Origin: Sipunculus nudus
Taxonomy: Eukaryota > Annelida > Sipuncula > Golfingiida > Sipunculidae
NCBI GenBank assembly: GCA_026874595.1
Contig: CM049316.1
Coordinates: 64,895,176 to 64,959,175, forward strand
Direction of reading: 5' to 3'
DNA: 64,000 nucleotides
Below, one piece after another: positions 1 to 41,056 of this stretch. The notes under the pieces are model-generated. The model made no database searches and was not told where the DNA came from. It was given only the letters and a program-made list of their open reading frames with translations. Within the stretch, counting starts at the first letter, position 1; every line of letters starts with the position of its first letter. Both the position numbers and the translations under genes were made by a program.

Positions 1-129
1 TAAGCCCAAGTCTAATTAATTTTTATTAATTTTCTTCTTCCAGTCATTTCTAAATTGACCATACTTGCATAAACCCATTTGCCAATCAGTTAATTGATCT
101 ATTTGGTGTATTTTGCAAAATTCATTCTG

Positions 130-5284: not shown

Positions 5285-5319
5285 TTTTTTTTGCCTAGAA
5301 CCTAAAAACTGCAGACACC

Positions 5320-5467
5320 GACAGGATCTGACATTTGGCACTCAATGCAGAGGTGCCCTCAGTACGGAGGTTATATTTTTGGGACCTCCTTTCAAGGGAG
5401 TGGGGAAATAGGCCATATATAGGAGGTGCCCTTAGTACAGAGGTGCCCGTAAGGAGAGGTTCCACTG
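5320..5467 (-). mobile_element. Tigger-type MITE fragment ending GGTTCCACTG
   Basis: The right end GGTTCCACTG is the inverse of the CAGTGGAACC terminus found at 21247, 51057 and 52820. The interior has AGGTGCCC words spaced like the GGGCACCTC words of the copy at 51057. Only one clear terminus is present, and the flank is CA rather than the expected TA. Confidence 0.55.
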
Positions 5468-7209: not shown

Positions 7210-7340
7210 CTAGTAGTAAATCATATAAATTGCAGAACATGCCACAAGAACGGACACTGTGGAGCCCCTGTTCAGACCAGGAGATTGGTTGCTTGGTGAG
7301 TCTTTCACTGGTGACATCTTTGTTGTCTTTGGGTGGTATG
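7210..7340 (-). CDS. Eph: Eph-like exon 8: terminal exon with hydrophobic tail and stop
   Basis: It lies after TTTTGACAG, in phase with exon 7. It encodes YHPKTTKMSPVKDSPSNQSP, then GLNRGS, then TVSVLVACSAIYMIYY and TAG. About 15 hydrophobic residues ending at the C-terminus after a Gly/Ser/Asn-containing stretch looks like a GPI-attachment signal, although it has no basic stop-transfer residues and is on the short side. No convincing internal donor was seen, so it appears to be a true last exon. Confidence 0.65.
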
Positions 7341-10300
7341 CTGTCAAAACAAACAGGTAAGCTTTAGTGTTGGGAGTTGCTGCCTTGGTCAGAATTGTTC
7401 ATCAACAACATATTAGTAACTGATGATCAATTTTTAGTCACTTGTAGAAGTGCTGGGAATCATTTGCAGATTTATGATCATCAGTAAATATTAGTTGACC
7501 TCTGAGAGATTTCTGATAAAATATAGACCTGTAAATCTTCTCAATTGATAAACAGGCCTATATTATGGTTAATATATGTAATAACTCTATAGCCCACACA
7601 AATATTTAGTAAGCTTAAGTGTGAATCTATAAGTAAACACAGATTGTTCTCAAGTTTGATCGTATAAATTTGATGATAGCATACATTCAATCATTAAAAA
7701 ACCTAACCTTAGTGAAAAACTCTGTAATCAATTATGGCAATGCAAGATCCAACACCAGATCATCTGCCTCAGCTGACCGATCATTGATTATAATCGATCA
7801 TCTGTCCTAATACTATTGAGCATGATAAAAACTTGTAACCGAGATTCCTGTACCCTTTGGTAGTGTTTCACTGACAGTAAGAGTCCCAGGCTTTTACTCT
7901 CAACAAGTCAAACAAATTTGACCTGAAGATGCATTCAAGATCTCCATGAAATGCCACAGCTCTTGGACAAATCATAATTTTGTGATCTCTATAGTTAATT
8001 AATTAAGTATATTACCAGTAAGCCCATGCTTTACTTAAAAAGACAAACATCTAGATATAATATATTGTTAATAATAAAGGTTTTGTGAGATGCTGTAAAA
8101 CACAAGAATCCATATTATTGCTTCTATCACACTTGATTATATATATATATATATATAAATAAACCTTATTTATTTTAGTATTACATGAATTGCAAATATA
8201 GCTAAAATAACAAATACAAGGCACTCTCCATGGCTCAGATGATAGTATTTTGTAGTCTGTAGAGGTGGAGGAAACCAGAGAAAACCACTGACCTTGGACA
8301 GGCCACTAAAACCCACGCTCATGGCAACTTAAGGGATCTCACAGGGGGCCCTAGTGAAGAGAGCCAAGCGTTGTACCCCAAAACTGTTCAGGCCTATACA
8401 TAGTCCAGGTCTATCTATATATGGTCCAGTCTATGCTAAAATAATAAGTTTTTTTTTTTCAATTTTAAGATATATTCTTTAGTTTTAAGAACAACATGAG
8501 ATACCTGTTTCAACCTCCACAGGCTGTTTAATGATTGTATGCTGATGTCCTGCTGCTCTGTCTCTTGTTTCCCACTCTGAGTGTGAGTGGCCTCGATGGC
8601 TTCCTGAATCCTCATCCCCACCGTCATCTGAAACCACAGAGGTAAATGAGTGCATAATACATCCACAGTATGTCTTGTGACCTTTGACCTTGCTGATTAT
8701 GCAAAGATTTAGCTAAGAGTCAAAATCATTTGAGTTATTTTATTGGTTAATAACCATACTGAATTTTATCAAATTACCTGGTGACCTCTGACCTCATCAT
8801 ATATGTGCATATTTTGCCAAGAATTGAAGTGGGTTGATAAAATTTTTTTGGCAAACATTTATAGTGAATTTCATCAAAATCCATCATATTCCTCCCAATC
8901 ATACTGAATTTCATCAAATTACTTGCTATCACAGCAATACCACAATGAAATCTGATGACCTCTGATCTCATCATAATCCATCATGTTCCTCCAATGTTAT
9001 CGCAGCAGCTCCACAAACAAGCCTGATGACCTCAGAACTCGTGAAAAATATACCGGTATGGATTTTGTTGAGATCTAAACTCAGGCAAGATACTTTGGGT
9101 AAATATCTATAGCCAGTTTCATAAAAATCCATCAAATACTTGGTAAGTTATCTTAGCGACAATAACAGTTAATGGACAGACAAGGGACAGACAGATGGCA
9201 CGAGAGACAGGTGGACCATCGGTATACCATAATATGTCTGTTCATAGACCGGCATATAAAAAGCAGTCTAACCAATAAAAAGTATTAAACTTTCCTTTCA
9301 ATATTAAACTGTTTCAGACCACCATCATTGGGACACCACAGGAGACACTGTAACACTTAACACAGTCATTTACCTGGTAAGGTAGTAACCAGGATTGATC
9401 TAAACGTGTTGTCTCCTGCCTCTCTGCTGACTGCGTTCTGGGCCCACACAAGTATGGTGTACATGGAATCCGGCTCCAGATTACTTATGGTAAGCCTGAA
9501 AAGATGGTGTGATACATGTTATATTTCAAACTTATCAACTCAACATTTAAGCTGAATATGGTTTGGTTTGAAAATATGGCCATATGAGAGCTAATACTAT
9601 CAACAAATGATATAGGATACATCTTTAAGTTTCAGTAAACAAATATAAACTAAAATCAAGGTAACAGGGCGCATACCTCAGCCAAGCCAAAACAATCATA
9701 TTATCACCGGGATGTTTTGGTATTTGTTGGTCTATTGATGAACAGATGAAATCCCAGTGATGTTGCATATATAGATGACAAACTGACAATAACAATTACA
9801 AACTAGAGGTACTGTTGTAAATCTATTTCCTCTTGTGTACAGGAGTAAGCAAATAGTTTTAGAATGAAATACTAGCAGATCGATCCCATAATGTTGTAAA
9901 GAGAAAACATTGTACTTCATGTATATTTAACATTTCAGGCATGTGAATAGGTCCCTTTAAACCAAATTTTGCAAGTGCTCAATGCTCCAACCTCCACACA
10001 GGGTCAAGATCTAATGAGGAGATGATAGGCCCCTGCAATTGCTTGTTCACCCAGCACCCTACTTCAGCGGCCTTGAGGCAACCACTGAATACAAACATTG
10101 TGGACCACATGGACCCATGGCGAGACCACTCGAAACTCCTAGGCTGGATTTGTATTCTCCCAAAACCACCCAAAGATAAGGTGAGGTGTTCCCAGTGGGA
10201 CCCAGACTTCACCCAAGGATCACGCCCATTTACCAAACATGTTTTTTTACCAGGTGCCATGTGGTATTTGTTTGAATACATTAACACTGTCCATCACCAT

Positions 10301-13300
10301 AATGTAGTTCCCCGGGTTTAACAAAATTTCAAATGAAAAGACAATAATAATCTTTATAACCGTTACATTTGGGATTAATGTTGCGAATGCATGTTCCAAT
10401 GGCTTAATTATTGTAATTTACAATTTCCGTGTGCTATAGCTTGATTTTGGCATAAAAGCATGCCCAGTGAATAAATGTATGCAGGAGGGTCATCCTTGAT
10501 ATTCATACACAGACCTTCTGTGTGGAGAGTGTCAATGTTAATGACCTCATAGTAGGACGCATTATCTGATGAAGACAGCAAGGCTTTGAGATTTAATTTG
10601 CACTGGGGTTTTTCCATAAAAATTATACCTTTTGTCATCAGGTTTTTCATGGTGCAAAACAGCGCTGTGACAGCCAACACACTCTGCAGTGTAGGTCAAG
10701 TCAGTCCTTCCACCCAGGGTCAAAGGTTCTGACCAGGTCAAGGTCAGGCTTGTTTTGCCAAGGTCAGAGACTTTCAAGTCTTCTACAGCAGATGGGGGCT
10801 CTGTCAAACAAAAATAAGTATATATCTTTATCAAATATTTTAATCAAATCAAGTGTTTTTACAGAGGGTAAGAGTAATGACAATTTCTGTGAGAGTATCT
10901 GTATATTGGGCCGATTGGGCTGAAATTTTGCACGTTTATACATCTTGGATAGGTTTTCAATTTTTGCGACAGGTGGCGCCACCTACCTCCCCATTTATGC
11001 TCCAAACATTCATGCTAATATCTCAGGACTGGTTTGACGGATCAGCCTGAAATTTTGCATATGTATAGGTCTAATATAGCCCTTTAACATAACAACAAGT
11101 GACCCATAGGTCATGACGCTCAGCTGCCAAGCATGACCTGCGACATCACGGGCTGAGATTCACAACTTCCAGTTAAATTTTGAAGACCCAATTTGCCAAT
11201 ATGTTGAAATTTTCTACGACAACAGAAATATATATCACCTGTGTCTGGTTAAAACACAGTGAATTTATGGTCAGAGGAAAAATATTGATTGTTAAGCTAT
11301 CAGCAACTATTCCCAGAGCTTGCTTGATACCTGTCAGTCTCAAAAGGAACACCACAAATGGCAAATATAAGATCAACATATAAAGCAAAAATCAAGGAAA
11401 ACCATGCAAGAATTATTGAGAAATGGGTGCTTCTGTTTAAATTTTATTTAATACAAGCCAACTGTACTGCACCTGTATAAATGATGGTAATATTTATTAA
11501 GAAATATTTTACACAATCCTTTGCAAGATAAGATTAATATACTTCCAACTGCATTCACTTTAACAGTTCTTGAGATAATATGATCAAAAGGAATATGGTT
11601 GCCTGGTGGCCATATTCAACTTCTGAATGGTCTGAAATCAGACAACAAACATTCTCTAAATTGGATCAAACATTAAAGAAAAATCACTGAAACTGCACTG
11701 AAAAAAAGGATTTCTAAGGTGGCTAACTGGCAGACAAAATGGATTTCTGACAAGTCAGACATTTGATATCACACATCCTCCAATAAGAGACCAAACTTGG
11801 GGCAAATTCTCCAAAGGGTGGTACAGTAATGAATGTCCAAAACAAATCAAAAGGCATGTTAAGGCCCTCATATCAGATTTATAGATATGCAAATGTAAAA
11901 AGTGTAAGTCTAATATTTTTATTATAACTCTGCTTTTCAATGGGGTCAGCAGGGTAGGTAAACTGCAAAACCTGAAAGAAAGGAAATGCAGAAAGCATGA
12001 CTAAGAGTCTTGTAATGAAAAAAAGCCATCCTTAATCCAGGTACATATCCACATATTATGAGAACAAACACTTGCTTTTATATGTGGTGATTTATATATA
12101 AATATTCCGGTATCTAGGAAACTAAGTTTATTGCTATGATTCCATAAAATAAACTGCAAAATTTTCCCATCATCTTATAAATCAGTAGCTAAACCTTAAT
12201 ACTGTACTCTCATAGTCTTAATGGCTGCCTGAAGCATTCCGACAACTGTGTTTTTGTTATGCAGTAACGAGGTACTTATCACTCAGCCTTATCACTTAAT
12301 AGGCTGATACCAAAGGGAGTCATATGTCACCAGTGTCACTCACAATTACAGCGACACAGTGATATGTACCAGCTGGATTGCAATGGTTATACATAAAAGA
12401 AAAATAGAGATGGTCTACAAAATAAGTTATTGCAAACATCCCTGACCAATAACCTTGGCCTTTTGCCCACATATCAACTGGATTCTTTCTAAATGATGGG
12501 TAACCACTTACCACTTAAATCTGGTGTAATTACTTGGCAACCAATGAGTGAATAACTTTGACCTGCAACCTTTAACCTCCTGACCAGCTGACCCCAAAAT
12601 CAATCAGTTATTTCTTCAAGCAAAAAGACCCATAAATATGAAGTTTGGATCAAATTGAGTGATGCATAGATGTGGCATATGTGAAAGACTGAAGGTTTGG
12701 GTTGAACAGTTTCACCAGAAATATGTTCACAAGCATTTAGAACAATTAAGTATTGTGGCCTTGACCTTTGACCTTTTGAATTTGACATCAATAGGCTTCT
12801 TCCCCTATTGGTAGGTAAGCCATATATGTCAGATGGAAGGTATAGATTGAAATGTTTGCCTGAAAATGTCTCCACATTAGAAGAGGGTGCGGTGAACTTG
12901 ACCTTTGACCTGAAAATCAACAGGTCTTTTCCCCTGTTGGCAGAGAATTGATATCAGTGCTGGAAGGTTTGGAATAAAAAGTCCAGCTTGAAATGTGTCC
13001 ACAACCTTTTAAAAAAATATGTTCACAAGCATTTAGAACAATATTGTGACCCTGACCTTTGACCTTTTGAACTCAACATCAATAGGCTTCTTCCCCTATT
13101 GGTAGGTAAGCCATATATGACAGGTGGAAAGTATAGATTGAAAAGTTTGCCTGAAAATGACTCCATGCAAGAAGAGGGTGCTGTGAACTTGACCTTTGAC
13201 CTCAAAATCAACAGGTCTTTTCCCCTGTTGGCAGAGAAGTGATATCAGTACTGAAAGGTTTGGAATGAAAGGTCTAGCTTGAAATGTGTCCACAACCTTT

Positions 13301-16300
13301 TCAAACAAGGGACCCATGGGTCACGGCGCTCAGCTGATCGTGATTGGACTTTAAATGTTTCTCCACTGTGATACTATATCGAGTCAATAAAGCTTATGAA
13401 TATCATGGACATGTTGGGCTATTATAAAGGAATGTAATGTAATATGTGAGTAAATGATAAATGAAATTACCTGACTGATGGATTAATAGAGTAAAATATA
13501 GTGTTTTTTTTTTTATTTATTTAGGAGGGGTTTAAAATTGTGATATATTTGAGCAAATATGAATGCAATGACAGCAATAATAAGCAGTAGTAGAATAATG
13601 ATAGTAGTCTGCAAGCTTTCAATTTGACAGATATGATGTTATGATTAACTATGCTGATGAAGTGATTTATGAATTTGTGACTGTATGACACAATATCTCT
13701 TTAGTCTTGACAAGGTACATTATTGTCATGCCCACTATGTCTACATATTACACAATATTGACATAATTTCTGGCATGTACATAGGTACCTAGGGATGAAT
13801 AGTTATACAAAATATTAAAGTATGAATATATCTGATTCATCTTGTTCTTGCTTACTGAGGCTGACTTTGGGATGGGGTTCGAGAGAAGGGAAAAGTGAGG
13901 GCAGCACGAAGGTGGATGTAGAAATATTCTATTGTAATGTTTTTCATTTATATAAGAATATGAAAAGCTGAGAGGAAAGGGGCCCTCCTACTTAGTTATA
14001 GTAAAGTTCTAAATATATGATTGCAAACTAATACTCTGAGAAGACTGTCATGAAGAAAAACAGTAAAAGTTTTGAGATACTGTGATGCATATGAAAATTT
14101 ACAGATGGACAGGCAAGTGAACAGAATGGACTAATACCTTTATTTCACTTTCAAGGGAATAATGCATTTAAGTTTATATAAAAGCCTATTTTTTAGCATA
14201 TCCACTTTTTCTATTAAGAAGTTTTTATCTGAATCATTTTTTTTAATTACATGTTTTATAAATTTTTAATAAAAAAACTGAAACTATAAGTTAAAATATT
14301 AGAATTGTTGCAAAAATCGCAATCATTATATATACAGAGTAAAAAACTGAAACTATAAGTTTAAATATTAGAATTGTTGCAAAAGTTGCAATCATTATAT
14401 ATCCAGAGTGTAGCTCATATTGGGTCATATTATGCATACACATATATTTTATTATTTTAAATCATAAATGTTTAAACTGAATTTAAAAGAAAATAATGCC
14501 ACAACATGGCATCTACAAGAATATTCCTTGAATCACTATTAAAAAGTTTTGCACATTGGAGTTTTCAGTACATACTTAATTTTATTCACCAAAATAAAAT
14601 AAAAGATTCAGTAAATTTGATAAAAAAAAACATCTTTTCAAATAAAGTATACACACTGTTGGTTGAATGAGGGACAAACAATATCATTGTGCTAATTACT
14701 ATCCCAGTTTTAATTTATTACTGGAATAAATAGTCAATTTCACACCTGGTGAAGTTTTTACTCTTCTGAAGTAAGGAATTACTTATCTCATGAACATCCA
14801 CACTTTCACAGCAATACACCACTTTGTGGACACAATTAAATGTACACTTTAATCATTGTAACCCTGGTGGTCCAATACAAAATCTAAAATGTAGCATGTC
14901 CAAGAATAAAATAAAATACAGAAAAATTATAACATTCATCTAGTTTATGCACCAGCTGGGGGGGGGGGGGGGGATGAGTGCAGGGCAGAGGGGAAGCCTG
15001 CTAGTAGTGGCCAAGCTGGGCCAGGGTAAGCTGCCTGGGGTGGGTTACATAATGCAAGTGAAGGCTGTACTACTAGGTGGGCTAGATGTAAACAACACTT
15101 GACATGGTGTATGAAAACATGAATAAAAGCTATTCATTCCAATCAATTTCTTTTGAAAGTTCATATTTTAAAAGATTAAATCCTTATGCATATATGCTGG
15201 GAAAATTAAATCAACAGTGCCAAAGTTGGACAAAATTTAAGGTATTGATTTTTTATTTATGCTAATAACTTGAAAAATTTGCAAAATTCAGATCTAATTT
15301 TGGGTAAACAATTGAATCTTGATTAAATAAAGTTATATTCCTGAAAAAAAGTCTCTAGGTTCAGCAATTCTCATGTTAGGTGAGTAAATATATTTCCTGA
15401 TTTTTTTAAAAATTGCATTATGTTTTGGCCCATAACTTCAAAATAATACCCAATACTGACCTTATTTTTGGTATGTTCATAGAAAATGTATAAAAGAATG
15501 GGAATACTAAATACGATCAAAAACAGATCAGTGGTTTTGATATTAGGCAGCCTTGAAGTGTAACAATGGCTTTTTTTTATGGAAAACGGAGTTTTTTTTT
15601 CCTTAATATCTCGAAGGAACAAAGTCCTAATGACCCAATTTTCGGTATGGTAGGAGATTTTGGGGACATCTAAAATTATGTCAACAGCCTGGGGAGCATA
15701 GAGATGTGCACTGAATGACCTACAGTCATCAAAGTGGACTGCTTGACAATGTAAGGGAATACAACAAGAGCCTCCAAAAAAATTCAATAACTAGCCTAAT
15801 TTTGCAGCTTTTATTTTCAGATTTTAACAGATTAAATCCTTATGTATACATGGTGTGAAAATTAAATCCACAATACTTACAGGAAAAAAACGTGCCATGG
15901 CCAAAGTTGGGCAAAATTTAAGGTACCAATTTTATATTTTTGCCAATATTTAAAAAAATTTAACAAATTTTGATCTAATTTTTGGTATTCAATTAAATTT
16001 GGTTAATTAAAGTTGTATTACTGGAAAAAAGTCCCTACCTTTAACACTTTTGGCCTTTAGTGACCAAATATCTTCCTGATTTTTTTACAAAGTCCATTAT
16101 GTTTGGGCCCATAACTTTTTTAAATTATATAATACTGACTTAATATCTGGCATGTACATAGGAACTATATAGAGGAATATTTATGGTAAATATGAAGAAA
16201 ACCAGATGAGTGGTTTTGATATTAGGCAGTCCTGAAGTGTGAAAATAGATTTCTAATAAAAAATTGAGGTTTTTCCTTAATATCTCATAAGAACGAAGTC

Positions 16301-19300
16301 CTATTGACCCAATTTTTGGCATGGTAGGAGATTATGGGGACATCTAACTGTATGCTGAAATTCAGATTCGTAGGTCCAACGGTGTCGAAACGTGCCAGTC
16401 TTACGGACAGACATCCAGACGGACAGACAGACGGACAGACGGACGGACGGATGGACGGACGACAGACAATGGACCATGACTATAGCTCAGATGACTTATA
16501 GTCAGAGGGGCTAAAAAGTGGATCCTGTGACCCTGACCTTTGACCTTGTGACCTCAACATCTATAGGATTCTTCTCCCATTTAGTAGGTGAGCTATATGT
16601 GAAAGATCAAAGAATTGGGATGAAAGGTTTGGCTTAAAATGCATCCACAGGCTTTTCAAAGAAGTTGGACCTTTGACCTTGTGACCTCAAAATAATTATG
16701 GTTCTTCCCCTGTTGGTAGGTGAGCTGTATGTGAAAGATGGAAGGTTTGGGATGAAAATTTTGGCTAAAAGAATTATTTCTGGGGGGTGCAAACACACCC
16801 CATAACTTCGAGAATATAGGTCGCAGTGACCTAATTTCAGGTTTGCAAGGAGATCTTTTAAGAACCTCTAAGACTGCATAGGGTTCATGGCCCTAGCCCC
16901 TACGGTTATGATTTGTGCCCTGCTAATGGACGGCCGGACGGACAGACAGAAGGACGCCGGACAAAGACCCATCGCTATAGCCCAGCATGACTGAAAGTCA
17001 GCCGAGCTAAAAACTGGTGGCGCCACCTGCAACCGTTTTTGCGAAGCGGCCATCTGTTATCTGCCTTTGGATAAAATTATGCATATCTCTGCAGTGGTTG
17101 GACTTATTCTCCTAAAATTATGCACGTTTATACATATTGGATAGATTTTTCGTTGATATGACAGGTGGCGCCACCTACCTATGCATTTACAGTGCAGACA
17201 TCCATGCTGATATCTCAGGACTTGTTTGCCAATTGGGCTGAAATTTTACACGCTTATTCATCTGGATAGTTTTTCCATTTTTGTGACAGGTGGCGTCACC
17301 TACCTCCCCGTTTATGCTCCAGACCACCATGCTAATATCTCAGGACTGGTTTGACATATCAGCCTGAAATTTTGCATGTGTATAGATCTCACATACCTCT
17401 CTATCATAGGCAAAACAGGTGGCACCACCTGCAACCATTTTTGCACAGCATCCGTCTGTTTGTGACTGTCTGCAGTGGGATAAAATCACTCATATCTTTG
17501 CAGTGGTTTGACTTACCTGCCTAAAAGTTTGCAGGTTTATACATCTTGGATAGCTTTCTGGATTTTGTGGCAGGTGGCGCAACCTACATTTAAGTTTATG
17601 CTGCAGACATCCAAGCTTATATCTCGGGAACCGTTTGACCGATTGGGCCAAAATTTTGCATGTGTATAGGTCTAACATAACTCTTTATCATACGCAAAAC
17701 TGGTGGCACACTTGCTACAATTTTTGCACTGCATCCATCTGTTTGTCTGCCGTGGGATACAATCTCTCATATCTAGGCAATGGTTTGACTTATCTGCCTA
17801 AAATTTTGCATGTTTATACATCTTGGATGGCTTTCTTGATTTTATGACAGGTGGCACCACCTACATTCACGTTCACGCTGCAGACATCCAAGCTCATATC
17901 TTGGGAACCGTTTGACCAATTGGGCCAAAGTTTTGCATGTGTATAGATCTCATACAGCTCTTTATCATAGGCAAAACTGGTGGCGCCACCTGCAACCATT
18001 TTTAGACAGCGTCTGTCTGTCTGCCGTGGGATAAAAACTCACTCATATCTCTGCAGTGGTTTGACGTTTTGCATATGTATACAACTTTGACAGCTTTCAG
18101 ATTTTGTGGTAGGTGGCGCAACCAACATACACATTTCGGCTGCAGACATCCATGCTAATATGTAACACACCTCACTCTATTTCCCCTTGCCACTCAATCC
18201 ATGCCTCACTTCACCTGTCCCACTCTGATTTCGGCGGATACACATAGTCGCTTGTTGACTACCAGTATTCTAGTTAGAGGTTAAGTTTTAGCTATAAATT
18301 TTAACAAGTGACCCAAGGGTCATGACGCTCATCTGCCAAGAATGACCTGCGACATCATGGGCTGCAATTCACAACTTCTAGTAAAATTGTTGCAGAACCT
18401 ATATGCCAATTTTGTTTAAACTTTCTACATTGCCATAAATTCTTATCATATATGTCTGGTTAAAACATAGTGAATGATGGTCTGAGGCAAAATGTATGGT
18501 TGTTGAGCTATCAGGAACTAATCCCACAGCTTGCTCGATACCTGTCAGTCTCAAAAGAAATACCACACAGGCCACATATAAGATCAAAATACAGCAAAAG
18601 ATCAAGGAAATCCATGCAAGAATTATTGTGAAACGGGTGCTTCCATATTAATTTTTATTCAATACAAGCCAACTGTACTGAGCTTTCATAAATGATGGTC
18701 ATATTTATTAAGAAATCTTTGACCAAATGCAAGATTACATTAATATACATCCCACTGCATTCACTTTAATAGTTCTTGAGATAATATGTTCTAAAGGAAT
18801 TTAAAGATGGCGTCCTGGTGGCCATATTGGATTTCTGACAGGTCGGAAATTGAACAACAAACATCCTCTAAAAGGGACCAAACATCATAAAAAAATCACA
18901 GAAACTGTCCTGGCAAAAGGATTTCTAAAATGGCTACCTGGCAGACATAATGGTTTTCTGACAAGTCACACATCCTCCAATAAGACACTAAACTTGTAGC
19001 AATTGCTTCAAAGAATGTAACAGTTATGAATGTCCAAAACAATTCAAAAGGCATGATCAGGTTGGAGAGCTCTCATATCAGATTTATGAACATGCAAATG
19101 TAAAAAGTGCAAGTCCAATTTGTTTTAATTATCAGCTTGCTATTCAATGAGGTCAGCAGGGTAGGTAAACTGCAAAACCTAAAAGAAAAGAAATGCAGAA
19201 AGCATCACTAAGAGTCTTGTAATCAAATAAAGCCATCCTAAATCCAGGTACAGACCCACATATTATCAGAACAAACACTTGCTGGTATATCTGATGATTT

Positions 19301-31300: not shown

Positions 31301-34300
31301 CTTTTCTTTATGTGCAGTAGAATAGTTGGCCCAATCTGACAATGAACTTTTCTCTATGCTATCATATAAAACCACTCCTGTAAAACAAATGTAAATTAAC
31401 ATTAGAAAACATAATTTTGTGTTTGTACCATCCTGTCATTAGTTCTAGTAAAGCACTAAAATAATGGTACTGTTACAAGGTCATCTTGTGTATGTTCACT
31501 TGTAACACAGGGTGAGAGAGACACAAGACAAGACTGGTAGACACTTGACTTTATTCCATATCAACTAAGCATGTTGTTACAGCAGCAGGGTGGTCTCCCT
31601 CTCTTGTGCTGTCTCTGTGATTCTCTCTGGGAGAACTGCACACCATGCAAAACTTCTGACTCAAGAGTTTGGAATGACCTTCTCCATACATATTCATTTA
31701 CCCTTAGTTTGTCATTTTAAAAGAATCTGATTGGTGACCTAACACTGAATTGTGTCAATGTTGATGTTAGAATATTTTCATCTTAATCACATGGCTTTTT
31801 GGAATGTGGTAAAACAAGAGTTCTATTCTGCGATTACTAAACCAGACGTAATTGTACTCATCTCACTTGACATAACAAATATCACCATCTGAACAACATT
31901 TATAATAATGCCCTGGCAGGTTCAAGTCAGAGTGACATCAGTGGATTATGATTACTGTCACTTTGTAGGTCTTTATGAAAACATTACAGGGGAGGCTAAA
32001 TGACTGGGTGGTTACTTCAGTTCTCTTTTTAATCAAACTCCTGGAACAAAGCATATCTCTGTCTTTCTGAATATCAGTCCTCATTAATCTTGGATACCTT
32101 CTGAATGAAATTTAGAAACATTCCTTTAAATATTTCTTAAGTCATAAACATGCCATCTCCTACTTCATTACATATTTACTTGTTATATATAGCTAGGGAC
32201 ATAGAAATCTACTAATTTAAACTGAATATTGATGATTAAAATCAATCAGCAGTTGATAGGCATCATGATATGACAAGTGAACAATTATTTAAACAAGGGA
32301 CCCATGGGTCACGGCGCTCAGCTGATCGTGATTGGACCATAAATGTTTCTCCACTGTGATACTATATCGAGTCTATAAAGCTTATGAATATCATGGACAT
32401 GTTGGGCTATTATAAACGAATGTAATGTAATATGTGAGTAAATGATAAATGAAATAACCTGACTGATGGATTAATAGAGTCATATATAGTGGTTTATTTT
32501 TTATTTATTAAAGAGGTGTAGAAAATTGTGATATATTTGAGCAAATATGAATGCAATGACAGCAGTAATAAGCAGTAGTAGAATGATGATAAGGCTATTT
32601 GTTGAAGGATCTAAAGTGTATGGGAGTCTGCAAGCTTTCAATTTGACAGATATGATGTTATGATTAACTATGCTGATGAAGTGATTTATGAATTTGTGAC
32701 TGTATGACACAATATCTCTTTAGTCTTGACAAGGTACATTATTGTGATGCCCACTATGTCTACATATTACACAATATTGACATAAATTCTGGCATGTACA
32801 TAGGTACCTATGGACGAATAGTTATACAAAATATTAAAGTATGAATATATCTGATTCATCTTGTTCTTGCTTACTGAGGCTGACTTTGGGATGGGGTTCG
32901 GAGAAGGGAAAAGTGAGGGCTGCACGAAGGTGGATGTAGAAATATTCTATTGTAATGTTTTTCATTTATATAAGAATATGAAAAGCTAAGAGGAAAGGGG
33001 CCCTCCTACTTGGTTATAGTAAAGTTCTAAATATATGATTGCAAACTAATACTCTGACAAGACTGTCATGAAGAAAAACAGTAAAAGTTTTGAGATACTG
33101 TAATGTATGAAAATTTACAGATGGAAAATTTACAGATGGACAGGCAAGTGGACAGAATGGACTAATACCTTTATTTCACTTTCAAGGGAATAATGCATTT
33201 AAGTTTATATATAAGCCTATTTTTTTTAAGCATATCCACTTTTTCCATTAAGAAGTTTTTATCTGAATCATTTTTTTTTTATTTACAGGTTTTATAAATT
33301 TTAAATGAAAAAACCTGAAAATATAAAATAAAATATTAGAATTGTTGCAAAAGTTGCAATCATTATATATACAGAGTAAAAAACTGAAACTATAAGTTAA
33401 AATATTAGAATTGTTGCAAAAGTTGCAATCATCATATATCCAGAGTGTAGCTCATATTGGGTCATATTATGCATACACATATTTTATTATTTTTTAATCA
33501 TAAATGTTTAAACTGAATTTAAAAGAAAATAATGCCACAACATGGCATCTACAAGAATATTCCTTGAATCACTATTAAAAAGTTTTGCACATTGGAGTTT
33601 TCAGTACCTGCTTAATTTTATTCACCAAAATAAAATAAAAGATTCAGTAAATTTGATAAAATAAAACATCTTTTCAAATAAAGTATACACACTGTTTGTT
33701 GAATGAGAAACAAACAATATCATTGTGCTAATTACTATCCAAGTTTCAATTAATTACTGAAATTAATAGTCAATTTCACACCTGGTGAAGTTTTTACACC
33801 TCTGAAGAACATCCACACTTTTATAGCAATACACCACTTTGTGGACACAATTAAATGTACACTTTAATCATTGTAACCCTGGTGGTACAATACAAAATCT
33901 AAAATGTAGCATAGCCTAGAATAAGAATGAATCACATACAGAAAATAATAACATTCATCTAGTTTATGCACCATCTGGGGGGGGGGGGGAGGGAGTGCAG
34001 AGCAGAGGGGAAGCCTGCTGGTAGTGGCCAAGCTGACCCAAGGCAAGCTGCCTGGGGTGGGTTACATAATGCAAGTGAAGGCTGTACTACTAGGTGGGCT
34101 AGATGTAAACAACACTTGACATTGTGTATGAAAACATGAATAAAAGCTATTCTTTCCAATCAATTTCTTTGAAATTTCAGATTTTAAAAGAATAAATCCT
34201 TATGTATATATGCTGTGAAAATTAAATCAACAGTGCCAAAGTTGGACAAAATTTAAGGTATTGATTTTTTATTTATGCTAATAACTTGAAAAATTTGCAA

Positions 34301-35761
34301 AATTCAGATCTAATTTTGGGTAAACAATTGAATCTTGATTAAATAAAGTTATATTCCTGAAAAAAAGTCTCTAGGTTCAGCAATTCTCATGTGAGTAAAT
34401 ATATTTCCTGATTTTTTAACAAACTGCATTATGTTTTGGCCCATAACTTCAAAATAATACCCAATACTAACCTAATTTTTGGTATGTTCATAGAAAATGT
34501 ATAAAAGAATGTGAATCCTAAATACAATCAAAAACAGATCAGTGGTTTTGATATTAGGCAGCCCTGAAGTGTAACAATGGCTTTTTTTATGGAAAACAGA
34601 GTTTTTTTTCCCTTAATATCTCGAAGTCCTGAACAAAGTCATAATGACCCAATTTTCGGTGTGGTAGGAGTTTTTGGGGACATCTAAAATTATGTCAACA
34701 GCCTGGGGAGCATAGAGATGTGCACTGAATGACCTACAGTCATCAAAGTGGACTGCTTGACAATGTAAGGGAATACAACAAGAGCCTCCAAAAAAATTCA
34801 ATAACTAGCCTAATTTTGCAGCTTTTGTTTTCAAATTTCAGATTTTAACAGATTACATCCTTATGTATACATGGTGAAAAAATAAATCCACAGTACTTAC
34901 AGGAAAAAAACGTGCCATGGCCAAAGCTGGGCAAAATTTAAGGTACCAATTTTATATTTTTGCCAATATTTAAAAAAATTTAACAAATTTTGATCAAATT
35001 TTTGGTATACAATTAAATTTTGATTAATATAAGTTGTATTACTGGAAAAAAGTCCCTACCTTTAACACTTTTGGTCTTAAGTGACCAAATATCTTCCTGA
35101 TTTTTTTACAAAGTCCATTATGTTTTGGCCCATAACTTTTTTAAATTATATAATACTGACTTAATATCTGGCATGTACATAGGAACTATATAGAGGAATA
35201 TTTATGGTAAATATGAAGAAAACCAGATGAGTGGTTTTGATTTTAGGCAGTCCTGAAGTGTGAAAATAGATTTTTAATAAAAAATTGAGGTTTTTCCTTA
35301 ATATCTTAGGGGAACGAAGTCCTATTGACCCAATGTTTGGCATGGTAGGAGATTATGGGGACATCTTACTGTGTGCCGAAATTCAGATTTGTAGGTCCAA
35401 CGGTGTCGAAACGTGCCAGTCTTACGGACGGACATCCAGACGGACAGACGGACGGACGGACGGACGGACGGACAGACAGAAGGATGGACGACGGACAATG
35501 GACCATGACTATAGCTCAGATGACTTATAGTCAGCTGAGCTAAAAATTTATATCAGAATACACATAGAAGTGAACAGCATAAAGTAAATAAGGACAAATA
35601 TACAGTACATCATTGCACAAAGTAAAGATAAAATGTCTTTACATGTAAAGAAATGGAACATTACCTCATTGCACTGATTTCCCATAAACTTGAAACTTAT
35701 GTAAAAGGTATATATGTAAATATGTGTATATGTATGTCCATGTATATAAGCACTATATCAT

Positions 35762-35811
<50 letters not shown>

Positions 35812-38800
35812 TATATATATATGCATGCATAATGTTTGGAGGACCTCAAACACCAACTTGGTTTTGAAGCACCTTGATGTAAATGCTTTCCTCTTGTACA
35901 TAGACAGACACAGGTCTCTATGGTTCAATATAGTAATTTTTTTTATTGTTTACTGAAAGTGATTCAACACAAATAATTATATGTGCACAGTTTTTATATT
36001 CCACAGAGCATGTGTTTCTCTGTACTGGTAACTTGAGTGTAAAATGTATTGTGCAGTTGAATTGTATATGTGAATGTTCATAGTTTCAAATATGTAGTGT
36101 TTATGAATGTTATTGTTTATGTGATGTTCCACTGTGTAAATACTTATAAATAATGACAATAAAAACTTAAACAAGGCCTACAGGCCTAATGAGAACCTGT
36201 GCATTGGGAAAAACACCAGGTATAATGCTTCAATGCTGGACCATTACTTTTCATGTATATGAACAATGCAAGTACTAAACATTTTGAATAAGAAACAATT
36301 ACACAAACATCACTGCTGAAATTCTGGCATGGGTGCACACAACACAAAAACGAGTGTAGCTGGCACCACCAGTCTTGTATACAACGAAGCTATCAGAGAT
36401 ATAACATATGCCAATTATCAGACTGATATATCAAACCCCTTCTGAGAAATAAGCAGGGACACACATTGTGCAAAAATTATTGTAGGTGGCACCACCAGTC
36501 TTATATACGACAAAGCTATTCGATATGTATAAATATGCCCAATTTCAGGCTGATATATCAAATTCCTCTGTAGAAATAAGCAGGCACATACACTGTGCAA
36601 AAGTCAATGTACGTGGCACCACCTGTCTTGTAAATGAGAATACCATCAAAGACGCAAAGACAGGTCAAAATATCAGTCCAATACATCAAACTTCCCCAGA
36701 GTTTGATGCACTGGGCTGACAAGGCTTAGGGGAGTAAGGCAGTTGCCCCTGAGTGACCTGTGACAAATTGCTGCCTCAAGCTACTGCACTCAGTGAACTC
36801 TTGACCTGTACCTGGCTAGACTGAGTGAACTTTTGACCTGTACCTGGCTGCACTGAGTGAACTCTTGACCTGTTGCATAATCTGACACAGTTGGCAGTCT
36901 GCCAAAGCTATAAATAGAATGCAGCTACTGCACTGAGTGAACTCTTGACCTATACCTGGCTGCACTTCTTCCAATCCTGGCACTGTGCCAAAACTATTTA
37001 TAGAGCTGACATCATCTTTGCTAATGGCCAACATCAAGGCACTGGCAAGTGCTTCCATCTGTACACAAAAGTGGTCCCTACTTGAAATAACTTTGAAATT
37101 TATTTTCCCAATACAAAATGCTTTTCAGCTGACTTTTTATAAAAAAGAAATCAGGAATATTTGTAAAATTATTACGGATGCATACTGAATGCAAAATTAA
37201 AATACAGATATATCTCATTGATGGCAAATTCTTGAATTGAGTAGGGATGCCAATTATTTATAATCCACGTACAGTTGTCTTTATATAGCCACAGAGAGCT
37301 GACTATCCATGATTGTAACATTGCCTGGTATGATAAATAACTTAAATCATAAATCTAATTTTTTTTAAAAGCTTTTAAAAAACTTTCTTGTCAATATTAA
37401 CCAAAGATAACCTGAAATCTAAATGTCTAATTGCATGATGTAATAGATGCTGATAAACTGGTGCCAGGCTAGATGTAACAGCATCACATAGCTTACATTT
37501 TGACTCAATTCAATTTCCATAATTCAGCCAAAAATCATTCATGTTGAACCATTAATGACAATTATTATAAGATTTATTGTAGGAATTATTCTTGTAAAAT
37601 ATTTTACAAACTGGCTTCAGTGGCATCCGTCAAAAAACGTTTCTCAGGTTTATAACTCATATAGGACGATACAGCAAACTGGCTCTGTTCAGCTTCCCGT
37701 AACTCAGCCAAAAAGCACTGAACCTAAACCATTTGAACAAACTTGAATTATCAATATCTGAGGATAATTAATGTGTGAGATTTAAGATTTTGGCCCAGTG
37801 GTTTTGAGAAGAAGATCTTTGTAGCCACTGAGCTAAAATGGGCTGTTATGGCATATGACCAAATTCAGCTTCCCATAACTTAGCCAAAATTCACTGAAAA
37901 GAGACCATTTGAACAAACTTCAGAAAGCACTACCCTAGGATCATTTCTGTGCGATATTAAACATTTTGGCCATATGGTTTCAGAGAAGAAGTTTTTTGTA
38001 GCTCTAAGTGTGATACAGGCACTGATGACCCTGTACAAAAAAGGCTGATGCAGGTACGCTCTTTACACAGCGCTTTACCTATAGGGCTACTACCTATATC
38101 GTAAGGCGCTGTTTCTTATGACCTCATATCCTGAATTGCTACACCAGAGGGGAGCACTGTATATTTGTCCAATCAGATGAGACCTTGTGCTGAAAGACAA
38201 AGCCAAGCGAGGAATACACGGAGCCAATCATGTTCATTTCGTTTTGTGTGACAGCTCATCACCCCGCCTAACTGTCTGAACAGGCCACAGGCTCAGAGAG
38301 AATTGCCCTTGACGTGGTTTGCTTAGGACCTTGGGCACATAGGATGCTTGGCCGGTGAGCTGTAATTCAAACGAAACGTAACAACAAAGGCTGTGTGCAC
38401 ACCTCGCTGGCTGGTTTCAGTTCTGCAGACAACAGATACACGGCTACACTAACATAGTCATAATTGTCATAATCGAATCGGTCGATGATGCGAGAATGCA
38501 GAGGGGGCAATTTAAATTTGACCGGAAACTCATCAAGCGGCGCTTGAAGCGCAGCAATGGATGGAGCCAGGATGCCTGTCGAGTGTTTGTTTATTGGCAT
38601 CTGCTTGGCTGCTTGTCACATCATACGCACATTTATTTCAGCGGACAACGAACCGCCATCTGGTGTCTAAATATATCATAAACGGTCAAAGCTGGCAGCT
38701 TGAAAATCAGTTGCTTCTTTAGAAGCGCAAGATTTCCGCTGCCTCGGGAGTATAGATGCAGGTGGCGCCACCAATACCTCGATTTCAGATATGACCGACG

Positions 38801-41056
38801 GACCAACATTGGCATAAAATTTGGTGATGATAGCTACAGCCGTTTCTGAGATTTAAATTTTAATATGCTTTTTTGCACAGTTAACAAAGTTCCAAAAATC
38901 TCCGAACTGGAACCATTTGAACAAACTTGAGAAAGATTGTTCCAGGGATCATTTCTGTGTAATATTGGACAATTTGGTTGGACAGTTTCAGAGAAGAAGA
39001 TTTTTAAAGTTTCTTTTAGCTTTTTCCCTATAAAATCTAAGAAAATGCAGTTAGAAAAAAATTTAAACAAAATCCGATATAGTTTTTTGGATGACTGATT
39101 ATTTGCAAAAAATTTGGTGATGCTAGCTCCTGCCATTTTTGTGATAGCTATGGTTAACGTACAGACGACGCACGACAGACAACCCACGACGGACAACGCC
39201 GCACCATCGCATAAGCTCACAGGTTCGCTAAAAATATATATATATATAGTGATCAGAAATGTCAAGTTGCTTTGAATGAAAGCTAAATCCAAAATAATAC
39301 AGCTTCAAAACATGACATGTCGAGAGTGTCACATCTTTTTTACATAAACTGATATATATTTAATGATACCTCACACTTTGTAATATCCACAAGAGCATTT
39401 GATTTTTCACACTTTTGTTTTTTATATGTTTTCATAGTGTTGTTTATATTTATTTTGGACTTAAAAACATGCTAGCCATGATAATGTTTAAAACTGCCAG
39501 CCATGATAATATGACATACAGAATGAACCAAGCAGAGCCAACTGTTCTATATGGTAAAAGCTGTCAGAAGTTTCCAGCTTTGTTACAAAATTCTAAGTAT
39601 TTGCCAATATAGATAATTTTTTAGCGCTGTCCTGATACAATATTTTTATTTAATTTCAAATGATCTATTACCATATATATTAATAAAATAAGGCATGAGG
39701 AGACCCAATGATGTTTAGAGTATCTATAATGATCCACTAATATTTGATAAATCAACACATGCTCAAAACATTGTTCTGTGAAAAGATTATGACTGAACGA
39801 GCGCAGATATGAATTATTCAATGTGATAATGGATATACAATGTGTTGGTTACTTCAGGGTAATATCGTGAAAATAGAACCACTGCAAAACAATGAAACGC
39901 TGAAGAGCAGAAAATATTAGCCTCAAGGAAATGTGAAAGGAAACCACAGTATACAGAGCCACAGGCCACTGTCTTAATTTATCTAGAGGATGGAGCACAT
40001 ATAAATTGTAGATGTTGTACTTGTTCCGAGTACTTTTGACATGGCCTGTTGTTGGTGCGTGTCCAAGTGAGTAGCTGTGATTGTTTCAGCCACTGATGTG
40101 CATGTGTTACATCATCACTGCTGTGAGTGTCCTAATTACCTGACCACTGGTTGCACACACTATTGTTTCAGCCTGTACAGTCAGTACGAGGTGCATGTAT
40201 TCATATTTCAGCTGGGTGGGCCAGGAGGTTAACAGTGTCTACCATTTGTATGTGTTCCATCCACCAGATAAATGAAGGCAGCCGCCTGTGGCTCTCTGTA
40301 AACTACAGAACCACACCAGAATACAGAGCCATAACCAATTACAGAGCCACACCAAACTACAGAGCCACAACAGACTAGACAACTAAGCCACAACCAGGTC
40401 TCCTTCTTAAATCATCTTAATTTAAAAGCCCCTGAACTTAATAGAAGCCTGGAAATTTCAATTTAGGACTCTTTTCCTGTCATTTGAACTATACTCTATT
40501 TTTCCTTTAAACTTTAGAAAAGACTTCAACATGTATTCTTTCCAAATGTCAAAAGATAAATTTACAAGCCATAAAACATATTTATATCTTATACATGTAT
40601 GGTACTATAGTATACATTTGGATAACTGAATGGGTCAGTGGAGGTGACATTTTGTCACAAAATCCTGTAAGCTCCATGTCATAGTTAGCTTTAAATGACA
40701 TGACAAAAAATGAGCATGTCACCTCAAAATTTATCTTTGAAATGTGGAGTGAAAGAGGACCTCTTCTCAAGTCAAGTTTTTTTTATGCATGTACCAGTAT
40801 ATTCCTTGTAATGTATAATACAGATATTGTACAAGATTGCATACTAGTATGTTAACATCAGTACCTAAAGTAAATACAGGTAGTGCTATATGCTATTAGA
40901 AAACGTGCTAACTGGTAATATTTAATTACAATTCCCTTCATGAATATTAATTACTATAACAATGCCAATGGAACCCCCAAAATGGCAAAAATACAGTTTC
41001 TTACTTTCGCCTTTGACAATGCTGAAAGCAGCGACAGCCAACATGACACCTGCCAT
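7210..41056 (-). CDS. Eph: Eph-receptor-family protein lacking second FN3 and kinase (whole gene, 8 coding exons)
   Basis: Exons on the minus strand: 41056-41005, 31377-31301, 28577-27932, 26800-26645, 10800-10629, 9495-9374, 8627-8505 and 7340-7210. They join in frame to 1479 nt (492 aa plus stop), and every junction is GT/AG with matching phase. Layout: signal peptide (1-17), ephrin-binding domain (about 20-184), Cys-rich TNFR/EGF-like region (about 191-310), one FN3 (about 312-408), a His/acidic then Ser/Pro linker (409-477), and a hydrophobic C-terminus (478-492). Canonical Eph receptors are roughly 950-1000 aa, with two FN3 domains, a transmembrane helix, a kinase and a SAM domain; all but the first FN3 are missing here. 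The family binds ephrins on neighbouring cells. This product would bind ligand without signalling itself, as a secreted or GPI-linked decoy. Exons 1-6 are secure. Exons 7-8 rest on phase, open frame and splice sites, and could be an alternative ending. Confidence 0.82.
8505..8627 (-). CDS. Eph: Eph-like exon 7: His/acid-rich linker replacing FN3-2
   Basis: This 123-nt exon runs from GGTTTCAG to GTATCT. In the phase dictated by exon 6 it is open and begins DDGGDEDSGSHRGHSHSEWE, then continues as a polar stretch to KQPVEVET. It has no FN3 strands, so the protein departs from the canonical Eph plan here. A second frame is also open; phase continuity on both sides decides between them. An interspersed repeat starts about 20 bp upstream of the acceptor. 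Confidence 0.68.
8648..9265 (+). repeat. interspersed repeat with CATCAAAATCCATCAT words and (GACA)n end
   Basis: It resembles 59690-60058 and 62190-62350. Shared words are GTGCATAATA...CTTGTGACCTTTRACCTT at the start, TTTCATCAAAATCCATCATA inside, and GGTATACCATAATA near the end. It includes one exact TGACCTTTGACCT at 8678-8690 and a GACA-rich run near 9170-9220. It is non-coding. Confidence 0.65.
9374..9495 (-). CDS. Eph: Eph-like exon 6: second half of FN3 domain
   Basis: It lies between TTTTCAG and GTAAAT and encodes LTISNLEPDSMYTILVWAQN, then an FN3 closing strand to VTTLP. It is phase-compatible with exon 5, so the C'-E region of this FN3 is shorter than in vertebrate Ephs. It ends after one base of a codon. 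Confidence 0.9.
9496..10628. other. Eph-like intron 5
   Basis: A GC-richer block lies at about 9990-10320. Its open frames run on both strands and do not resemble known proteins. I saw no FN3 piece that would have to be inserted between exons 5 and 6. Confidence 0.5.
10629..10800 (-). CDS. Eph: Eph-like exon 5: first half of FN3 domain
   Basis: It encodes PPSAVEDLKVSDLGKTSLTL and then TWSEPLTLGGRTDLTYTAEC, the first strands of the Eph FN3-1 domain, including the conserved W and the GGRxDLxY motif. The donor is AAAAG|GTATAA after two bases of a codon. The 15.8-kb intron before it (10801-26644) holds several nested transposons. Confidence 0.9.
10853..11093 (+). repeat. single unit of the GGTGGCGCCACC repeat
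   Basis: It contains a perfect GGTGGCGCCACC at 10972-10983. The surrounding text (CAGGTGGCGCCACCTACC, then CATGCTAATATCTCAGGACT) matches units of the tandem array at 17016-18150. It directly abuts the 5' end of the element at 11094. Confidence 0.75.
12762..13202 (+). promoter_or_regulatory. cluster of four DR1 nuclear-receptor half-site pairs
   Basis: TGACCTTTGACCT occurs exactly at 12762-12774, 12899-12911, 13053-13065 and 13190-13202, spaced about 140 bp apart within repeat units. It is the reverse complement of AGGTCAAAGGTCA, the textbook DR1 bound by HNF4, RXR and COUP-TF type receptors. Binding in vivo is not shown by the sequence. Confidence 0.5.
13304..16516 (+). mobile_element. 3.2-kb pearl/Helentron-like element, copy 1
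   Basis: It is nearly identical over its length to 32292-35545. It starts AACAAGGGACCCATGGGTC and GCGCTCAGCTGA. It ends with CATCCAGACGG, a GGAC/CGGA run (about 16427-16463), a GACTATA...TATAGTC hairpin and GGGGCTAAAAA. The second half holds two related blocks of about 0.7 kb, each with ACTGATTT/ACCAATTT and GATATTAGGCAG words. Open frames in it are frameshifted and shared only between copies, so I do not call a gene. Confidence 0.75.
17016..18150 (+). repeat. tandem array built on the palindrome GGTGGCGCCACC
   Basis: Palindrome sites lie near 17016, 17164, 17284, 17412, 17569, 17700, 17848, 17979 and 18108, perfect at 17016, 17164 and 17979 and with one or two changes elsewhere. They alternate between contexts CAGGTGGCGCCACCTACC and CTGGTGGCGCCACCTGCAAC, giving about four dimeric units of roughly 280 bp. 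The array directly follows the 3' end of the element ending at 17011. It is non-coding. Confidence 0.8.
21247..22467 (+). mobile_element. pogo/Tigger DNA transposon
   Basis: The ends are CAGTGGAACCCCGC and its inverse GGGGTTCCACTG, flanked by a TA duplication. Just inside each end are 17-bp repeats containing GACCACCCCACAATT. The interior holds a fragment of Tigger transposase, so the 1.2-kb copy is an internally deleted element. Confidence 0.85.
21971..22162 (+). pseudogene. N-terminal fragment of pogo/Tigger transposase
   Basis: The 63-aa frame starts MPLKELSLKDKVALIKAA, which matches the first helix of the N-terminal CENP-B/Tigger helix-turn-helix DNA-binding region. It continues with WLSGLASGKLKCKQNILKRK, resembling the second helix, and then loses similarity and stops. 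The second HTH and the DDE catalytic core are absent, so it cannot mobilise DNA. Confidence 0.7.
24917..25200 (+). promoter_or_regulatory. cluster of three DR1 motifs
   Basis: TGACCTTTGACCT is exact at 24917-24929, 25053-25065 and 25188-25200, with a near match at about 25334. This is the same spacing as in 12762-13202, because the two segments are copies of one repeat. Confidence 0.45.
25651..26644. other. Eph-like intron 4, proximal part
   Basis: It is AT-rich. Near 26215-26310 the text CGCGAAAATTGATCCCTCG...AACCACAGTATA resembles 39845-39955 and looks like a MITE end. The other end was not located. No exon was seen. Confidence 0.4.
26645..26800 (-). CDS. Eph: Eph-like exon 4: Cys-rich TNFR-like segment
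   Basis: It lies between TAAACAG and GTAAGT. In the phase set by exon 3 it reads CQPGTFKADVGNHGCSACPE and then DIWCQCDEKYYRASSD to a final APCT. This matches the paired-Cys repeat and the CxCxxxYYRA signature preceding the first FN3 in Eph receptors. A longer open frame over the same bases is a shadow. Confidence 0.93.
27585..27916 (-). mobile_element. tRNA-derived SINE, copy 1
   Basis: On the minus strand it begins TGGCTCGGTGGTAGAGCAC, an A-box-like tRNA start. It continues through GGACTCAAAGCAGGGAG and a conserved body containing CCCAGCAATGGGG and CACCAGGCCTGGTTAACA. It matches 49850-50190 throughout. The B box is eroded in this copy. The SINE starts about 15 bp beyond the donor of Eph-like exon 3, in the sense orientation. 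Confidence 0.75.
27932..28577 (-). CDS. Eph: Eph-like exon 3: ephrin-binding domain and start of Cys-rich region
   Basis: This 646-nt exon runs from TTCTTTCAG to GTAAGT and encodes residues 44-258. It shows the Eph ligand-binding domain pattern: SVIRTISVCDVN, WIRSPFIPR, DIRFTMRHC, then NGVYFSFRFESVCSALISF and VHFLQCP. The domain closes with ENLAVFPETPVEGA, and the Cys-rich region opens with the CRSNGDWVTPEGGCSCMKGY motif. Sequons NTT, NLT, NDS and NET agree with an extracellular location. The apparent open frame past the donor is intron read-through. Confidence 0.95.
28578..29052. other. Eph-like intron 2, distal part
   Basis: AT-rich, with no element ends or coding signal recognised. Confidence 0.5.
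29053..31270 (+). mobile_element. 2.2-kb pearl/Helentron-like element
   Basis: It starts AACAAGGGACCTATGGGTC with GCTCAGCTGA. It ends with a GGAC run (31164-31212), the GACTATA...TATAGTC hairpin and TCAGCTGAGCTAAAAA. It contains one copy of the 0.7-kb internal block, a poly-G tract (about 30015-30037) and the nested MITE at 30222. Its 3' end lies 30 bp from Eph-like exon 2. Confidence 0.7.
30222..30524 (+). mobile_element. MITE with GGTATGGTTCTCAGGCAC terminal inverted repeats
   Basis: The left end is GGTATGGTTCTCAGGCAC and the right end GTGCCTGAAAACCATACC. Inside each end are GC-rich CCCGCAT words. It is homologous to 5021-5284. Confidence 0.75.
31301..31377 (-). CDS. Eph: Eph-like exon 2: start of ephrin-binding domain
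   Basis: This 77-nt exon lies between TTTTACAG and GTAACT. It encodes VVLYDSIEKSSLSDW followed by a Tyr/Ser/Lys stretch with an NYS glycosylation sequon. It corresponds to the first strand of the Eph ligand-binding domain. A transposon ends about 30 bp beyond its donor. Confidence 0.88.
31378..32291. other. Eph-like intron 1, segment between two elements
   Basis: Unique-looking, AT-rich sequence. No exon, RNA gene or repeat was recognised. Confidence 0.4.
32292..35545 (+). mobile_element. 3.2-kb pearl/Helentron-like element, copy 2
   Basis: It is close to identical to 13304-16516 apart from small indels. The 5' palindrome GACCCATGGGTC is at 32299-32310 and the 5' motif GCTCAGCTGA at 32316-32325. 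The 3' microsatellite is at about 35436-35475, the hairpin arms at 35507-35513 and 35526-35532, and the motif TCAGCTGAGC at 35531-35540, followed by TAAAAA. Poly-G is at about 33978. It lies wholly in Eph-like intron 1. Confidence 0.78.
35766..35822. repeat. (TA)n microsatellite
   Basis: A near-perfect TA run just downstream of the element ending at 35545. Similar runs lie at 46003-46050 and 54322-54408. Confidence 0.9.
36170..39234 (+). mobile_element. pearl/Helentron-like element, third terminal subfamily
   Basis: The 5' end AACAAGGCCTACAGGCCT is followed by GAGAACCTGTG (36191-36201). The 3' end CACAGGTTCGC (39218-39228), then TAAAAA, is its inverse at 10 of 11 positions. The interior has three GTGGCACCACC units at about 36367, 36487 and 36615, an array of GAGTGAACTCTTGACCTG words (36790-36960) and the CAGCCAAAAWNCACTGAA blocks. 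It is split by the 699-bp insertion at 38056. No replication protein is seen. Confidence 0.65.
38056..38754. mobile_element. 699-bp insertion with 9-bp target duplication
   Basis: GATGCAGGT occurs at 38047-38055 and again at 38755-38763. The related repeat at 170-195 has it once and runs uninterrupted, which proves an insertion. The insert is GC-richer than its host. It begins with a hairpin-forming AGCGCTTTAC...GTAAGGCGCT (about 38073-38112) and has no obvious terminal inverted repeats. Open frames inside resemble nothing known. The superfamily is unknown; 9-bp duplications occur in Mutator-like elements, among others. Confidence 0.7.
39235..41004. other. Eph-like intron 1, 5' part
   Basis: AT-rich. 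A short run of ACAGAGCCAYA words lies at 40305-40375 and a possible MITE end at about 39845-39955 (AACCACAGTATA-type). No exon other than exon 1 at 41005 was recognised. Confidence 0.4.
41005..41056 (-). CDS. Eph: Eph-like exon 1: signal peptide
   Basis: The ATG sits in a near-ideal Kozak context (GCGGCCATGG). It encodes MAGVMLAVAAFSIVKGE, a short hydrophobic leader, and then a donor GTAAGA after one base of the next codon. That phase-1 end fits the two leading bases of exon 2 exactly and gives Arg at the junction. The exon was found by frame matching because it is far too short to stand out as an open frame. Confidence 0.7.

Follow-up and report, generated by a model that had tools for sequence, protein, structure and literature searches.

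The Sipunculus nudus window analysed here (a stretch of 64,000 nucleotides, C11:64895176-64959175, in a genome of 1.43 Gb and 153 contigs that was itself searched) contains an Eph gene with an ephrin-binding outer part and no detected kinase half, the product of which probably acts on ephrins as a decoy or ligand, either tethered at the cell surface or secreted. The explanation that best accounts for the whole, to which we would give a probability of roughly 0.6, is that of a diverged stand-alone paralogue encoding a GPI-tethered, kinase-independent ephrin binder.

The gene model consists of eight minus-strand exons (Table 1) which join in phase, across GT-AG introns, into 1479 nt encoding 492 aa and a stop. 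A preliminary description of this DNA had already given eight phase-consistent exons, a 492-aa protein and a stop at 7210, and rejoining the exons returned the same length. The domains listed there, an ephrin-binding domain, a Cys-rich region and one FN3, were also recovered on the joined protein, all as Pfam families above their cut-offs: Ephrin_lbd (4.7e-24, 85.9 bits against a cut-off of 27), Ephrin_CRD (5e-14), fn3 (8e-9) and Ephrin_rec_like (4.5e-5), the last one barely so (23.6 against 23.1 bits). Adding exon 2 extends the Ephrin_lbd match to profile positions 2-176. The closest solved structures are those of EPHB2 (8.6e-53, residues 42-357), EPHA4 (2.2e-51, residues 49-407) and EPHA2 (2.3e-50, residues 10-404), and since these alignments span exon junctions, the Eph homology extends from exon 1 to exon 6, which clearly read as an Eph ectodomain. 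No Pfam family matched the final 84 aa of the 492-aa protein, and no homology was found for exon 7. Exon 3 had no match in a collection of viral contigs, and in a collection of genome contigs it gave 11 pattern matches, none of them a relative. An AlphaFold2 model of exon 3 alone contained mostly strands in residues 1-140, but its quality (mean pLDDT 49, pTM 0.46) is too low for it to be of use.

Table 1. Exons of the Eph gene and the repeat in its last intron (positions within the window).
Feature	Position	Strand	Content and support
Exon 1 (E1)	41056-41005	-	Start codon and signal-peptide-like segment; 15-residue hydropathy 1.97; EPHA2 alignment starts at residue 10
Exon 2 (E2)	31377-31301	-	First strands of the ephrin-binding domain; from phase and pattern scan
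Exon 3 (E3)	28577-27932	-	Ephrin-binding domain and first Cys-rich module, G-H loop shortened; Ephrin_lbd, Ephrin_CRD
Exon 4 (E4)	26800-26645	-	Second Cys-rich module; Ephrin_rec_like 23.6 bits; C15 peptide 2.4e-11
Exon 5 (E5)	10800-10629	-	First half of FN3-1; fn3 8e-9 on joined protein; C15 peptide 2.4e-9
Exon 6 (E6)	9495-9374	-	Second half of FN3-1; fn3 8e-9 on joined protein; C15 peptide 7e-7
Exon 7 (E7)	8627-8505	-	Likely exon; hydrophilic stalk; open phase 1-1 exon, GC 0.50; moderate splice sites
Exon 8 (E8)	7340-7210	-	Likely exon; Ser/Thr/Pro/Lys-rich stalk, then hydrophobic tail up to the stop; GPI-signal-like
Interspersed repeat	7361-7819		Last intron; ends about 20 bases before E8

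Genome-wide, Ephrin_lbd has two matches, the window gene (80.5 bits) and a locus at C15:12729239 (156 bits). The latter is a canonical Eph, with exons for the ligand-binding domain, the Cys-rich region, a split FN3-1, FN3-2, the transmembrane and juxtamembrane parts, the kinase and SAM within about 26 kb (Pfam confirmed one kinase piece and the SAM, and FN3-2 was placed by its first half); it also carries the single match to the EphA2_TM family in the genome. The window gene has the order expected of a canonical Eph, Cys-rich modules and then FN3-1, with the same intron places and phases. In a comparison by eye with the C15 gene, eight splice sites at five introns fall at the same place and in the same phase, with just one side compared at each of the two outermost introns. 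On the sequence evidence the two genes are paralogues that arose when a gene with introns was duplicated, and neither is a retrocopy. Within exon 3, identity is 32.4% between the window gene and C15, 31.6% between the window gene and EPHB2, and 38.6% between C15 and EPHB2; the window gene would fit a fast-evolving or old duplicate. Exons 1-6 hold about 408 open codons with intact splice sites, and so long an open frame at 32.4% identity to C15 (exon 3 part) points to selection rather than decay. An extra FN3-1 exon between exons 5 and 6 had been suspected because human Ephs are longer there, and was ruled out since FN3-1 of C15 is divided at this position too, in the same phase, and exceeds that of the window gene by about three residues.

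The missing half was sought with C15 peptides in the window and the next 140 kb downstream. Over this range the best matches had E values of 2.3 for FN3-2, 0.24 for the juxtamembrane part, 0.95 for the kinase (four pieces, one of them without a match up to E 5) and 3.1 for SAM. As a positive control, the C15 peptides for the ligand-binding domain, the Cys-rich region and the two parts of FN3-1 detected the window gene at 1.9e-38, 2.4e-11, 2.4e-9 and 7e-7, respectively. Kinase exons are usually better conserved than ectodomains, which makes this ectodomain control a fair one. Two further searches were weaker: Pfam on three minus-strand frames of 1-9902 found nothing of FN3-2, juxtamembrane part, kinase or SAM, a test that also missed the half-FN3 of exon 6, and pieces of human FN3-2 reached at best E 1.5 in 1-9373, with a weak control in which the known FN3-1 exons scored only 0.067 and 0.087 (whole window). 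Downstream of the gene, Pfam identified a TRAF-like frame on the same strand (C11:64882148-64883548, minus, 11.6-13.0 kb past the edge of the window), as well as a RhoGEF frame on the plus strand (from C11:64877147, 16.5-18.0 kb past the edge). With no kinase-half exon in the window or the 140 kb beyond, other gene-like frames downstream and the canonical Eph on C15, the gene most likely stands alone and is not a short isoform. The claim in the preliminary description that the gene lacks a second FN3 and a kinase thus holds over this range, and the search beyond position 1 that it had suggested gave nothing better than the juxtamembrane value when run over 140 kb. Between the two forms it had offered, a separate gene or a short isoform of a larger locus, these results speak for the former and against the latter.

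Exons 7 and 8 are likely rather than proven exons, the support for them being statistical and the splice-site scoring approximate, written from general knowledge. Five other phase 1-1 open exons (two on the minus strand, three on the plus) pass the same splice thresholds in the non-exon DNA of the window, and none of the five has a GC content of at least 0.48, compared with 0.50 in exon 7 and 0.35 in the introns. The codon score of exon 7 was matched by none of 2000 random open intron stretches and the modest score of exon 8 by 88 of 2000; this score is a rough one, given that its codon table was built from exons 1-6 only and that leaving out exons 2-6 one at a time gave values of -0.14 to 0.17, against 0.50 for exon 7. 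Last-exon candidates with an acceptor score of at least 4.0 numbered 49 in non-exon window DNA (30 minus, 19 plus). Tail hydropathy reached at least 1.6 in three of them (1.70 in exon 8), and none combined such a tail with a hydrophilic body.

There are also competitors. When the 21 kb beyond exon 6 were scanned with looser criteria, 7 of 45 frames had a hydrophobic stretch or tail, exon 8 included. A 28-aa hydrophobic-tailed frame at 4909, which narrowly fails the stricter cut, is a possible alternative last exon. Three of the four internal candidates accepting phase 1 in the same 21 kb (at -11144, -351 and 1379) outscore exon 7 on splice sites; they are shorter, with GC contents of 0.33, 0.47 and 0.25, respectively, and none of them matches exon 7 in every respect. 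Splicing exon 6 directly to exon 8, skipping exon 7, would be in phase. The acceptor of exon 8 sits at the edge of the interspersed repeat, which occurs in at least 40 other genomic places (from the scoring of 40 of 4120 candidates), these matches covering the repeat and not the exons. Poly-A signals past the stop are uninformative, the nearest AATAAA being at 6693 and their frequency, by estimate, close to chance.

The hydrophobic segment that follows the stalk of exon 8 has 15-17 residues, extends as far as the stop and lacks basic cytoplasmic residues. Its best 19-residue mean hydropathy is 1.28, compared with 3.31 for the transmembrane segment of C15 (20 residues), in agreement with the earlier statement that the gene has no standard transmembrane segment. 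GPI signals have a small attachment residue, a spacer and a hydrophobic tail up to the stop and, by inspection and hydropathy, the tail of exon 8 likely fits such a signal better than a transmembrane helix. Under the omega, omega+2 rule, N467 (N-Q-S) or N473 (N-R-G) would presumably be the candidate attachment sites. The tail ends with two tyrosines and is not a textbook GPI signal. Surface tethering by GPI is put forward tentatively, at a little short of even odds. We are similarly cautious, leaning slightly against, about the fuller picture of a GPI-anchored Eph from a dedicated gene, in which the ectodomain would be tethered like a GPI-anchored ephrin with the roles reversed, and the pocket remodelled by the near-loss of the G-H loop. 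If such a GPI-anchored Eph exists, the "receptor" would be only a ligand or cis-regulator of ephrins.

The pocket itself was compared with those of C15, EPHB2, EPHA2 and EPHA4. The core is preserved, and of the 61 positions invariant in those four, 38 recur in the window protein, among them the aligned cysteines and the equivalent of EphA2 Arg103, a residue reported to be contacted by ephrin-A1 (PMC3419725). The D-E, G-H and J-K loops are described as capping the ephrin pocket, with a disulphide in the G-H loop (PMC3782497, PMC3274464). Between the cysteines of this loop there are 2 residues in the window protein, against 9 in EPHB2, EPHA2 and EPHA4 and 11 in C15, which may have altered or abolished ephrin binding; an ordinary affinity should not be assumed. 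Binding of ephrins by the window protein is plausible, in a form that may be altered. Two ephrin-family matches above the cut-off lie on one contig (C14:31074573 and C14:44324495) and are candidate ligands of both Eph genes; the match at C14:31074573 has two internal stops, perhaps an intron.

We propose that duplication of an intron-bearing Eph gene gave rise, as the alignments and intron positions support, to a diverged paralogue without the exons for FN3-2, the transmembrane-juxtamembrane part, the kinase and SAM. Past FN3-1, the transcript would most likely enter two other exons, encoding a hydrophilic stalk followed by a hydrophobic C-terminus that would be lost on GPI attachment. The outcome would be an Eph ectodomain on the outer leaflet of the membrane, with a secreted form as the second choice, which might bind ephrins without forward kinase signalling. 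It could act as a decoy or inhibit the canonical Eph in cis; alternatively, it could be a ligand triggering reverse signalling in ephrin-bearing cells.

Release as a soluble decoy, in the manner of EphA7-S or EphA10s, would follow if the tail were not a GPI signal or if another short last exon were used. The signal-peptide-like start, the lack of a strong transmembrane helix and the alternative last-exon candidates within 21 kb after exon 6 are all compatible with it, and secreted or ectodomain-only Eph isoforms have been reported (PMC5295425, PMC13259870). We nevertheless consider it rather unlikely, as the hydrophobic end of exon 8 after a hydrophilic stalk is a combination absent from all 49 candidates, even if the frame at 4909 comes close. 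Loss of ephrin binding altogether, in a decaying or re-purposed duplicate (either a pseudogene of recent origin or a protein that mediates adhesion through a different ligand), would agree with the lower Ephrin_lbd score (80.5 against 156 bits in C15) and with the almost lost G-H loop. It appears improbable in view of the roughly 408 open codons of exons 1-6, their intact splice sites at low identity, and the retained cysteines, invariant positions (38 of 61) and Arg103 equivalent.

The gene could also be read as a full-length Eph with FN3-2 and kinase exons that lie farther off, are misassembled or were missed, exons 7 and 8 being the alternative end of a short isoform. Vertebrate Eph genes are reported to produce such isoforms (PMC5295425, PMC6993872), and exon 6 ends in phase 1 as FN3-1 of C15 does, making a splice to an FN3-2 exon possible. 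This reading is nonetheless very improbable: the C15 FN3-2, juxtamembrane, kinase and SAM peptides found no counterpart in the window and 140 kb while the ectodomain control worked, the lone EphA2_TM match of the genome is at C15, and other gene-like frames follow downstream. We therefore retain the stand-alone, GPI-tethered paralogue as the preferred explanation.

Kinase-less Eph forms are already known as splice isoforms, and the new element here would be a gene dedicated to such a form. Vertebrate EphA7-S and EphA7-T1 likewise lack the kinase and consist of an Eph ectodomain that is either secreted or bound to the membrane, and are reported to block full-length EphA receptors and their signalling (PMC5295425); they are, however, splice products of a kinase gene, whereas the window holds a separate gene with no kinase exon detected, ending after FN3-1. 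EphA10s, described as having only the ligand-binding and Cys-rich domains and as counteracting full-length EphA10 (PMC13259870), is again a splice isoform, unlike the separate window gene with its FN3-1 and hydrophobic-tailed stalk. The zebrafish epha4b cryptic-last-exon product, which ends in an intronic last exon, has the ligand-binding domain without transmembrane or intracellular parts, is active in vivo and disrupts hindbrain boundaries (PMC7997972); that product is aberrant, appearing upon SFPQ loss, while the window gene has no detected downstream kinase exons to skip. Taken together, the EphA7 isoforms and the truncated epha4b product indicate that such proteins can act dominantly. The pseudokinases EphA10 and EphB6 share with the window gene the Eph family and the absence of a catalytic forward signal (PMC6993872), but they retain a kinase domain minus its catalytic residues, whereas none was detected here. 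GPI-anchored ephrins, among them reportedly a mollusc one (PMC6993872), would resemble the window protein in having a stalked ectodomain and a C-terminal anchor signal (putative in the window gene); the window protein differs in bearing the receptor's binding domain and not the ligand's.

Some choanoflagellates reportedly have truncated proteins that contain an Eph ligand-binding domain, and early animals many partial Eph gene models (PMC6485061); a phylogeny from 2008 included, by its own account, no lophotrochozoan Eph sequences (PMC2405795). In the open-access literature that was searched, which leaves most subscription journals outside its scope, we found no dedicated kinase-less or GPI-anchored Eph gene. 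If the proposal is true, a gene dedicated to a kinase-less Eph beside a single canonical Eph would mean that a kinase-independent partner had become fixed in the evolution of Eph-ephrin systems. It would also be a natural system for testing reverse signalling in isolation from forward signalling, as well as the contribution of the G-H loop to ephrin binding.

Several features of the surrounding sequence can be added. An open frame with an RNase_PH_C domain (45402-45767, plus strand, 1.1e-9) lies upstream of the Eph gene on the opposite strand and probably represents a gene for an exosome subunit. Farther along the window there are a minisatellite with about 28 copies of the 17-base unit AAGCCCACCTGTCTATT (52843-53312) and several coding-looking minus-strand frames, Pro-rich and Glu/Lys-rich (58893-62738), three of which were tested and gave no Pfam family. 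Past the other edge, two closely similar TRAF-like frames of 467 aa at C11:64871800 (plus) and C11:64882148 (minus), about 10 kb apart, flank the RhoGEF frame and perhaps represent a recent inverted duplication. A block of long overlapping open frames, mobile-element-like by appearance, is located at C11:64758854-64763600.
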